A stretch of DNA of 64,000 nucleotides, taken from assembly GCF_026239695.1 (NCBI RefSeq), contig NZ_JAPIVS010000008.1, forward strand, positions 186,001 to 250,000, given 5' to 3'. Position numbers and translations under genes: made by a program. The notes beneath the pieces are model-generated. The model did not search any database and had not been told where the DNA came from. It saw only the letters and a list, made by a program, of their open reading frames with translations. Positions 3,468 through 10,290 of the stretch are shown piece after piece (the first letter of the stretch is position 1; every line of letters starts with the position of its first letter). This DNA is from Pedobacter sp. MC2016-15 (GTDB taxonomy: Bacteria > Bacteroidota > Bacteroidia > Sphingobacteriales > Sphingobacteriaceae).

Positions 3468-4829
3468 ATGGTATATAATAATGCAAAACCCGAAGACCTT
3501 GCTGTTCAGGTGATGGAAAAGTTAGCCCACAGCAGCTTATCAAGTCCCGTACCCTCTTTAGATACATTAAAAGATCTGTTTGAGTGTCTGTTTTTTACCA
3601 GCATGCAGACTGAGGAAGGTGATCTGATCAAAGTTACAATCACGATCATCGATCCTGAGAATCCAGATCCAAAACCTCCGGAAGTACTTCCTTCTGAGCG
3701 CTGGAACATTATTTCTTTCAGTGAACTTATTCATCTTTCCATCAAAACCTTGTCTAAGCTCTCGAAAGCTTCGGATCCGACGGCAACTTCCCTGGCGGTT
3801 TATTATGATGCAGAGGGTAAACTATTCATCTGGGGTATGATTGATCAGGCTATACATTACCAAAGTTTTCTGAATTATGAATCAGATTCCGGTTCGGAGC
3901 AGCCGGGCATCTTTCAAGTTACGATTAGTGATATTGGTACCTTAAATGTGCTTTTTGACTATGAGCTTTTAGCCACATTAAAGCAAAACATTTTGGTTAC
4001 CCATTATCTTGATGTTTTCACTATTGGTCCAATTGCGAAGATATTAAAAGCGAATGCACAGCATCTAAAGGCCGACATCCTTGAGTTTTTAAAAAGTGAA
4101 CATCAAAATGAAAATTTTGAGGACTGGGAGTCATTTATTAATAGCTTATGGATCCAAACGATATCAAGGCTGCTTCTTAGAATACAGAACTATCATCATG
4201 GCGGGGCGGTGTTAATTACAGATAACTTGCTGGAAATTGATATCAAGTACCGGATCAATTATGACAGGCTGAAGGTAGCTATCAGTAGGCTGGCGAAAGA
4301 AACAATCAATAATTTTGTCGCAGAGACACTCATTGATGAGCATATAACAAAAGGGAATAAGACTATCTCCAAAGACTGGTATGTAGAGGAGTCACGAAGC
4401 TTATTTCTTAAAAAAGAAGTCGCAGATGAGATCCGAGGGGCCATCTCCTTTTTAGCTTCTCAGAGTTGTGTTGATGGGGTGTTGCTTTTTGATCGGGATA
4501 TGGTGTCCAGCGGATTTGGGGGTGTTTTAAAATCTAGAAGGATGCCAAAGAAAATATATATATCACCTACTGCAACCGCAAGCCCAAAATCCCTTGTAGC
4601 AACTGACCCAACTCACTTCGGTACAAGGCACCGGTCTATGATCGCCTATTGCTGGAAAAACACTGGAAGTCTGGGACTGGTGATATCTCAAGATGGTGAT
4701 ATACGTGCCTTTTTGCGGATTGATAACAAGCTGATCATGTGGGAGAATATTAAAACTCAACAGTTTATTACAAAAAGAAAGTCAAAGAAGCAGTCGAATG
4801 GTAATCTCAATAATGGAGATACTAATTAA
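3468..4829 (+). CDS. Sensor-type protein with a divergent C-terminal diadenylate cyclase (DAC/DisA_N-like) domain
   Basis: The 453-residue soluble protein has an unassigned N-terminal region (about 1-300) and a C-terminal DAC-like domain. The latter carries Asp336-Gly337-Val338 where DisA/CdaA enzymes have Asp-Gly-Ala, a Gly-rich loop (SSGFGGVL), the hallmark GTRHRS at 385-390, and VISQDGD where cyclases have Val-(V/I)-Ser-Glu-Glu. The RHR signature binds the ATP phosphates in known cyclases. c-di-AMP synthesis is therefore plausible, but the changed DGA and SEE motifs leave activity open. The architecture recalls the DACNV-type sensor-DAC proteins predicted in bacterial nucleotide signalling. 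It lies 11 nt after the GH97 gene and may be cotranscribed with it. No membrane segment is present. Confidence 0.75.
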   Translation: MVYNNAKPEDLAVQVMEKLAHSSLSSPVPSLDTLKDLFECLFFTSMQTEEGDLIKVTITIIDPENPDPKPPEVLPSERWNIISFSELIHLSIKTLSKLSKASDPTATSLAVYYDAEGKLFIWGMIDQAIHYQSFLNYESDSGSEQPGIFQVTISDIGTLNVLFDYELLATLKQNILVTHYLDVFTIGPIAKILKANAQHLKADILEFLKSEHQNENFEDWESFINSLWIQTISRLLLRIQNYHHGGAVLITDNLLEIDIKYRINYDRLKVAISRLAKETINNFVAETLIDEHITKGNKTISKDWYVEESRSLFLKKEVADEIRGAISFLASQSCVDGVLLFDRDMVSSGFGGVLKSRRMPKKIYISPTATASPKSLVATDPTHFGTRHRSMIAYCWKNTGSLGLVISQDGDIRAFLRIDNKLIMWENIKTQQFITKRKSKKQSNGNLNNGDTN

Positions 4830-9587: not shown

Positions 9588-9941
9588 ATGGCAAATATTA
9601 ATTCTGTAAATAAGGTAGGATCGAGAATCAAATTTTTGAGGAAACGAAAGGGGTGGCCGCAGAGCGAAATCGCAAAGAAGCTTTCAATTTCCAGTGCTGC
9701 CTATTCGAAGATCGAACTTGGGTTCACAGATTCCAACATTTCAAGATTACAACAGATTGCTCAGCTTTTGGAGGTTCATGTACTGGATCTGCTAAATGAT
9801 AGCGATGTGCATATTTTGTATCAGGTAGCAGCGACAGTTAATGACCTTAAAGAAAAAATAACATTATGTGAAACAAAAATCGGAGAACTCCAGACAAAGA
9901 CAATCAACCTTTATGAAGAATTGCATAGATCAGGAAAATGA
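9588..9941 (+). CDS. XRE-family regulator with C-terminal coiled coil
   Basis: The 117-residue protein has an N-terminal Cro/CI helix-turn-helix (about 10-70: IKFLRKRKGWPQSEIAKKLS, SSAAYSKIELG, RLQQIAQLLEV). A predicted coiled coil follows (about 80-115: VNDLKEKITLCETKIGELQT), probably for dimerisation. The stop overlaps a short downstream frame by four bases (ATGA at 9938). DNA target and function are unknown. Confidence 0.85.
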   Translation: MANINSVNKVGSRIKFLRKRKGWPQSEIAKKLSISSAAYSKIELGFTDSNISRLQQIAQLLEVHVLDLLNDSDVHILYQVAATVNDLKEKITLCETKIGELQTKTINLYEELHRSGK

Positions 9942-10015
9942 GTCAGCCAGTCTTATTGATCGAGGATGAAGTCCACATTATTACTAGTTTAAAATCTTTA
10001 TATAGAGAAACATGA
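9938..10015 (+). pseudogene. 25-codon response-regulator-like fragment between two XRE genes
   Basis: The frame starts in an ATGA overlap with the upstream XRE stop and ends in a TGA that overlaps the ATG of the next XRE gene at 10012. The peptide begins MSQPVLLIEDEVHIITSLKS, which resembles the first beta-strand and acidic pocket (Glu-Asp-Glu) of a CheY-like receiver. The fragment ends after the first helix, so the phosphoacceptor Asp is absent. It may be the stub of a deleted response regulator, or a short coupling peptide. The overlaps at both ends suggest it is translated. Confidence 0.5.
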
Positions 10016-10290
10016 ATAGTAAAAATAAGATAATAGAGGGCAAAGTAAGGACTGCTATTATCAACATTAGAAAAATCAGGGAATATCGTAATTATTCGCA
10101 ACATTATGTTGCGGCTAAACTTTCTATATCACAAAATGCATACAGCAAGATTGAGCTTTTCCGAAGTGCGATTACTTTAAACCGGCTCTTTCAAATTGCG
10201 GTAATACTGGAAGTAGAGGTAATGAATTTGCTCTATGTTGAGCACCTAACTGAAGATATGTTTAACGATTTTCCTCCAATTAAAGGGTAG
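10012..10290 (+). CDS. Small XRE-family regulator (NYSQ-type, copy 1)
   Basis: The 92-residue protein is essentially one Cro/CI helix-turn-helix: IRKIREYRNYSQHYVAAKLS, ISQNAYSKIELF, TLNRLFQIAVILEVEVMNLL. It is a clear paralogue of the protein at 47864, which shares NYSQxYVAxKLSISQNAYSK and ends with the same PPIK. The start ATG overlaps the stop of the upstream 25-codon frame, suggesting translational coupling. Target unknown. Confidence 0.85.
   Translation: MNSKNKIIEGKVRTAIINIRKIREYRNYSQHYVAAKLSISQNAYSKIELFRSAITLNRLFQIAVILEVEVMNLLYVEHLTEDMFNDFPPIKG

Follow-up and report, generated by a model that had tools for sequence, protein, structure and literature searches.

A predicted DACNV-type diadenylate cyclase of Pedobacter whose putative sensor half may be a degenerate cyclase fold

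The closest described systems to the protein considered here are the DACNV-domain diadenylate cyclases, a class reportedly named by Galperin in 2023; in Pfam, DACNV has the label "probable sensor domain" and is tied to the diadenylate cyclases (DAC). In the open-access literature that we searched, a scope outside which Galperin 2023 lies, the term DACNV does not occur, nowhere is such a region described as a degenerate DAC, and no enzymatic data on DACNV proteins were found. CdaA shares the DAC fold and most ATP-contact residues with our protein, but has a transmembrane N-terminus, the motifs DGA, RHR and SEE, and a DAC domain free of the hairpin insert described below. DisA, which furnishes the top match of the C-terminal half by VIA-align and of the N-terminal half by Foldseek, differs in that the DAC domain is C-terminal in our protein, where the DisA linker and HhH regions find no match. 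Paired catalytic halves are a feature of the animal adenylyl cyclases, to which we liken the tentative tandem of pseudo-DAC and DAC proposed here. Degenerate GGDEF domains that act as sensors beside an active domain show that a catalytically dead domain can take on such a role (PMC7288161); we propose the same working principle for the N-terminal half, from which these domains differ in domain family and nucleotide.

The gene lies on the forward strand of the window, by which we mean the entire 64,000-nucleotide stretch analyzed (positions 186,001 to 250,000 of contig NZ_JAPIVS010000008.1 from the soil bacterium Pedobacter sp. MC2016-15). Its frame at 3468..4829, which opens with ATG, and its length of 453 aa are as a first-pass annotation of the DNA had given them, and it is not a chance frame, because relatives are encoded at 22 distinct loci in public genomes. 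The features of the gene are as follows.

3468..4829, forward strand: DACNV-DAC protein, 453 aa (open reading frame, Pfam, relatives)
3489..4001, forward strand: N-terminal half (residues 8-178), a putative pseudo-DAC whose predicted fold is that of a degenerate DAC and takes in Pfam DACNV (model of residues 1-189)
3543..3842, forward strand: Pfam PF21751 DACNV, residues 26-125 (E 2.6e-16)
3831..3848, forward strand: WGMIDQ, residues 122-127; G, I, D and Q invariant in 34/34 rows
4026..4757, forward strand: predicted C-terminal DAC domain, residues 187-430 (structure model, Foldseek, VIA-align)
4200..4217, forward strand: GGAVLI, residues 245-250, which probably corresponds to the GALI strand; GG invariant in 63/63 rows
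4266..4472, forward strand: predicted helical hairpin insert within the DAC domain, two long helices at residues 267-294 and 302-336 (model)
4473..4481, forward strand: DGV, residues 336-338, catalytic Asp position; DG invariant in 63/63 rows
4620..4637, forward strand: GTRHRS, residues 385-390, phosphate-binding loop; GTRH invariant in 63/63 rows
4686..4697, forward strand: SQDG, residues 407-410; SQD invariant in 63/63 rows, the motif register putting Asp409 opposite the Glu that binds metal in SEE

Pfam DACNV matches with 60 bits against a gathering cut-off of 27, which bears out the first-pass guess of a DACNV-type module and supplies the family that had not been recognized for the N-terminal region; this region is probably not an unrelated ligand sensor, given the DAC-like fold predicted for it. 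The Pfam DAC family (PF02457) stays below threshold on residues 382-414 (12.4 bits, cut-off 27), the NCBIfam profiles gave a single match far under its cut-off (14.5 bits vs 194), and the PADLOC anti-phage defence profiles matched in 0 families up to E 5. Against solved structures, phmmer returned six weak matches, none better than E 0.87 and five to ubiquitin-conjugating enzymes, and a profile of 20 relatives returned nothing at E 10. Pfam matched neither the CdaA_N transmembrane domain, which the genome's own CdaA carries, nor the DisA linker or HhH families. With a DACNV match over the cut-off and a C-terminal DAC domain, the protein resembles the DACNV-domain diadenylate cyclases and belongs to a family that is known but has received little study, akin to the enzymes producing c-di-AMP; unlike the norm of that class, its subfamily has DG[VL] rather than DGA and mostly keeps RHR.

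The relatives at the 22 loci, 36-74% identical in the best segment, come from Mucilaginibacter, Pedobacter, Hymenobacter, one Flavobacteriaceae genome and one Sericytochromatia MAG. Two of the 22, in Mucilaginibacter conchicola (L010:5875-7344) and Pedobacter fastidiosus (L024:5962-7334), have broken frames, attributable to gene loss or assembly errors. The genome of the window has two DACNV genes. Among 60 genomes of the genus, 57 carry a core paralog of ~380 aa and 14, the window's own genome included, have a second gene resembling that of the window, four of these 14 constituting a 39-42% identical subtype; the gene is thus accessory within the genus. A survey of 296 genomes of the phylum recovered any DACNV in eight, seven of which (own included) belong to the same family. 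In a single FastTree run the protein groups with Mucilaginibacter (support 0.99 for a group that includes the MAG SP236, 0.84 for the next and 0.44 for the local placement), a grouping that suggests either that the gene passed from one genus to another or that ancient copies were lost unevenly. There was no match to the gene in 72,556 plasmid records, and none in viral contigs with the two peptide patterns searched for.

The core paralog (380 aa; G000:C9, L001:1399-2541) has the same two-half layout and the same GG, DG, FG, GTRH and SQD motifs, but the window protein is about 70 residues longer, with a larger DAC insert, and has GTRHRS where the 30 paralog rows examined have GTRHLS or GTRHFS (own copy GTRHLS). 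The two are too distant for a blastp match at E 1e-4; a profile-to-profile comparison matches them across 316 columns (E 6.5e-16, 22% identities). Conservation was counted in 34 subfamily rows, which represent at most 32 distinct genes since L059 and L064 duplicate L016 and L014, and in 63 rows with core paralogs added. The protein sets exclude the two broken frames and the window itself (L002), and the 63-row set excludes a fused frame of 623 aa that lacks the third motif (B_L046); the paralog rows come from the 30 loci that scored best within a single genus and are closely related. The CdaA set comprises 17 of 26 loci tried, and because its filter demanded DGA and G[TLS]RHRA, the conservation of these motifs within it is not independent evidence.

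The first-pass annotation had recognized a DAC relationship in the C-terminal half and named structure prediction as what could overturn it; prediction returned a DAC fold for this half, with Z up to 12.9 to DisA. The full-length AlphaFold2 model is of moderate quality (20 sequences, pLDDT 80.3, pTM 0.73; the other four models 78.2 down to 61.2). For its C-terminal half, Foldseek put CdaA and CdaM structures at the top (best E 1.8e-3, probability 1.00), and VIA-align placed it closest to DisA with c-di-AMP (9y4s; Z 12.9, rmsd 2.5 over 130 residues) and to 2fb5 (Z 12.4). Among the best 50 VIA-align entries the first 40 were all DAC (Z 10.1-12.9), the first non-DAC entry standing at 5.2. As this match begins near residue 187, the domain appears larger than previously thought: the earlier start at residue 300 is wrong, and the predicted core goes back to about residue 187-212. 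A predicted helical hairpin splits it. GG and DG, 90 residues apart in the window protein and 90-96 in 34/34 subfamily rows, are separated by 64-65 residues in 28/29 core paralogs and by 42 in 15/17 CdaA, these 28 and 15 being the rows for which the spacing was read. DG and GTRH are 49 residues apart in 30/34 subfamily rows, 51 in 29/29 core paralogs and 30-31 in 17/17 CdaA. The poor Pfam DAC score probably results from the hairpin splitting the domain, and profile similarity of this half to CdaA is short, extending over 35 columns locally (34.5 vs 15.9 for the best decoy).

Taken literally, only RHR among the canonical motifs is present, DGV and ISQD standing for DGA and (V/I)SEE. The first-pass annotation had placed GTRHRS, DGV and SQDG correctly, but its reading of the latter two as divergence does not hold, since SQD is kept in 63/63 rows and position 338 is V in 25/34 and L in 9/34. 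The supposedly divergent motifs are instead a family signature that retains the chemistry-bearing residues: GG, DG, FG, GTRH and SQD are all invariant across the 63 aligned rows of subfamily and core paralogs. The FG lies at residues 350-351, and we know of no FG motif after DG in CdaA. A review of the CdaA-ATP structure (PMC7288161) gives the side-chain contacts as Leu31, Asp71, Thr102, Arg103, His104, Ser122 and Glu124 (metal), with Glu123 making its contact through the main chain. By motif register these would correspond to position 248, Asp336, Thr386, Arg387, His388, Ser407 and Asp409, Gln408 taking the place of Glu123; thus placed, Asp409 replaces the metal-binding Glu of CdaA. Position 248 is mostly I, L or V, and the other six contact residues are invariant in 34/34 subfamily rows and in 63/63 with core paralogs. 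With 51/453 positions invariant in the 34 subfamily rows, the probability that six random positions would all be so is 1.6e-6, a post hoc figure that ignores the clustering of conserved residues.

That such strict retention reflects use is argued by mutants of a CdaA: replacing the Asp of DGA, or an Arg of GxRHRxA, by Ala left the enzyme inactive, and a Ser-to-Ala mutant was reduced, with 47.5% conversion reported (PMC12974146). The third RHR residue is more variable (R in 28, Q in 4, C in 1 and N in 1 of the 34 subfamily rows; L or F in core paralogs), and as it is absent from the CdaA contact list its variation may be tolerable. A DisA-type enzyme in which RHR was changed to AAA lost ATP binding and activity, the Gly of DGA being dispensable (PMC3328451); the loss with AAA is a caution for family members without the third Arg, which the window protein keeps. 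On the alignment, the ATP-binding residues of the DACNV-DAC protein look intact.

The N-terminal half was modeled alone as residues 1-189 (20 sequences, pLDDT 80.9, pTM 0.80). Foldseek ranks five DisA structures first (E 1.0e-3 to 3.4e-3, probability 0.98-0.99) before dropping to E 0.8 at the next match, and VIA-align returned 39 DAC entries at Z 6.2-7.8 followed by fructose-bisphosphatase at 4.0; 2fb5 has the best value (Z 7.8, rmsd 4.4, 135 residues), and 9y4s has Z 7.5 (rmsd 3.8, 117 residues). Values below 8 lie within the stated background of this tool for models without clear relatives, and the claim consequently rests on the exclusiveness of the DAC match. Both halves, as modeled, have the element order H-E-E-H-E-E-H-E-E-E, to which the C-terminal half adds one helix in the insert and two short strands before the seventh element, and the N-terminal half one short terminal strand. 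Placed by this order, WGMIDQ just precedes the helix that in the C-terminal half begins with GTRHR; G-x-I-D-Q, invariant in 34/34 subfamily rows, thus occupies the counterpart of GTRHR. GxRH occurs in 0/63 N-terminal halves, and a DG[AL] string in 2/63, both of them core paralogs. The half has its own conserved residues, with Ser45, Glu49, Glu50, Lys97 and Gly123 retained in 63/63 rows, and Asp103 and IDQ in 34/34 subfamily rows. On the strength of the DAC-only fold matches, the shared element order and the lost GxRH, we consider it likely that DACNV together with the strands that follow it is a degenerate DAC fold, a structure-based reading that the profiles do not support: in six pairings of N-terminal halves with CdaA or C-terminal halves, compared locally and globally with shallow alignments, none of the profile scores rose above that of its best column-permuted decoy. 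Most positive controls beat their decoys (N-half A to N-half B, 80.0 vs 20.2), but one positive control failed (core paralog C-terminal half to CdaA, global, 3.7 vs 6.6), and the method is therefore weak at such distance.

Signaling by c-di-AMP is plausible in the host, because its genome encodes CdaA (L003), the single DAC over the Pfam cut-off, a 7TM-HD protein, which we take to be of the PgpH kind, and a membrane protein with two TrkA_C matches that by eye is a cation:proton antiporter. No c-di-AMP riboswitch was found in this genome by a search that matched in 2/14 control genomes. Porphyromonas gingivalis, of the same phylum, makes c-di-AMP (PMC9259658). Beside its canonical DAC, one Bacteroidota genome has another DAC match (G082:C94:58454-58804), weaker at 44.9 bits, inside a frame of 591 aa.

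We propose, with even credence, that the protein is a soluble, accessory DACNV-type diadenylate cyclase in which a pseudo-DAC N-terminal half regulates the pairing of catalytic halves. The DAC fold of both halves and the conservation of the catalytic site are supported by prediction and alignment; catalysis, the product, ligand binding by the N-terminal half and the control of pairing we infer. The C-terminal DAC domain would bind ATP and metal via Asp336, Thr386-Arg387-His388, Ser407 and Asp409, and two such domains meeting face to face would most likely produce c-di-AMP. The N-terminal half, a putative DAC-fold domain with lost ATP loops and conserved residues of its own, would most likely be regulatory, binding a ligand (c-di-AMP itself or some other nucleotide being the leading candidates) and governing the ability of the catalytic halves to pair, in the way that degenerate GGDEF domains regulate adjacent domains. 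More tentatively, the arrangement might be a built-in pseudo-heterodimer, with the DACNV pseudo-DAC docking head-to-head on the DAC domain of the same chain and capping its single ATP, such that a ligand would have to release the pseudo-DAC before two catalytic halves could meet and make the dinucleotide.

The retained active site must be weighed against the view that the C-terminal domain is a binding-only relative, a receptor of ATP or c-di-AMP in a cell whose sole real cyclase is CdaA. A canonical CdaA in the same genome, the replaced SEE motif, a DG-to-GTRH spacing longer than that of CdaA, and the loss of the third RHR residue to L or F in the core paralog are all compatible with this, but a pure binder could dispense with the catalytic Asp, which is invariant in 63/63 rows together with the first Arg and the acidic residue at the metal site, and we judge the view unlikely. 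Some of the same peculiarities could indicate a pocket rebuilt by the hairpin insert, the FG after DG and SQDG so as to make some other dinucleotide, whether cyclic or linear. The GG-DG and DG-GTRH stretches, unlike those of CdaA in length, and the invariance of FG in 63/63 rows would fit such a change; yet the residues for phosphate and metal are standard and nothing points to another base, making this quite improbable.

For the N-terminal half, taking the Pfam label at face value would make it an unrelated small-molecule sensor whose DAC likeness is that of a common alpha/beta arrangement. The lack of profile similarity to DAC and the Z values below 8 speak for it, but both Foldseek and VIA-align place DAC entries alone above background and the element order is identical to that of the C-terminal half; we accordingly give this reading a minor share of belief and prefer the degenerate DAC. 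Directly upstream on the same strand, after a gap of 11 bp, lies a GH97 gene, an assignment of the first-pass annotation that Pfam PF10566, PF14508 and PF14509 confirm, and such proximity might signify that the two genes work together in sugar use. However, among 36 loci of relatives a related immediate neighbor occurs only at the Hymenobacter locus L020, on the other side and 28% identical, and within about 6 kb the GH97 protein's cluster is common only to L020 among 22 loci. No other locus of the neighbor comparison has a GH97 relative directly upstream. A role in sugar use with this neighbor is very improbable, and we rejected the partnership.

Nor was any conserved operon partner found, either within about 6 kb at 22 loci or among the neighbors at the 36 loci of relatives (a table that leaves out L019, removed by the motif filter). 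A histidine kinase cluster lies near the DACNV gene at 14/23 loci within about 6 kb, the scanned cluster members being kinases, and a Pfam scan of 9 hand-picked neighbors found HisKA over the cut-off in three and below it in one; as several loci represent one lineage, we make no claim on these kinases. RlmF adjoins the core paralog at 7/37 loci and was discarded as a conserved link. Around the gene, three promoter-like sites were seen vs 4.7 in shuffles, and two terminator-like sites vs 0.9 expected. In a single case, a gene 204 bp downstream of a relative's DACNV gene (L057:7468-8682) encodes an HD domain followed by a Pycsar effector PycTM domain. Elsewhere in the window, at 9588-10290, two adjoining short genes (117 and 92 aa), by eye of the XRE-type helix-turn-helix kind, were grouped by blast with proteins that lie close to L008 and L010.

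DACNV-DAC proteins are already a named class; what is new is the structural idea, as yet unproven and drawn from models, of DACNV as a degenerate DAC. A DAC was reported as needed by the DS-2 phage-defence system (PMC13092281), and unusual accessory DACs therefore merit attention, though nothing in the present analysis ties the window gene to defence. Few of the signals that diadenylate cyclases read are known, and the annotation of DACNV goes no further than "probable sensor". If DACNV is a dead copy of the cyclase, the family would gain a concrete control mechanism, either self-capping or product sensing by the pseudo-domain, and the face-to-face meeting that DAC domains require would have to reckon with a decoy partner inside the protein itself.
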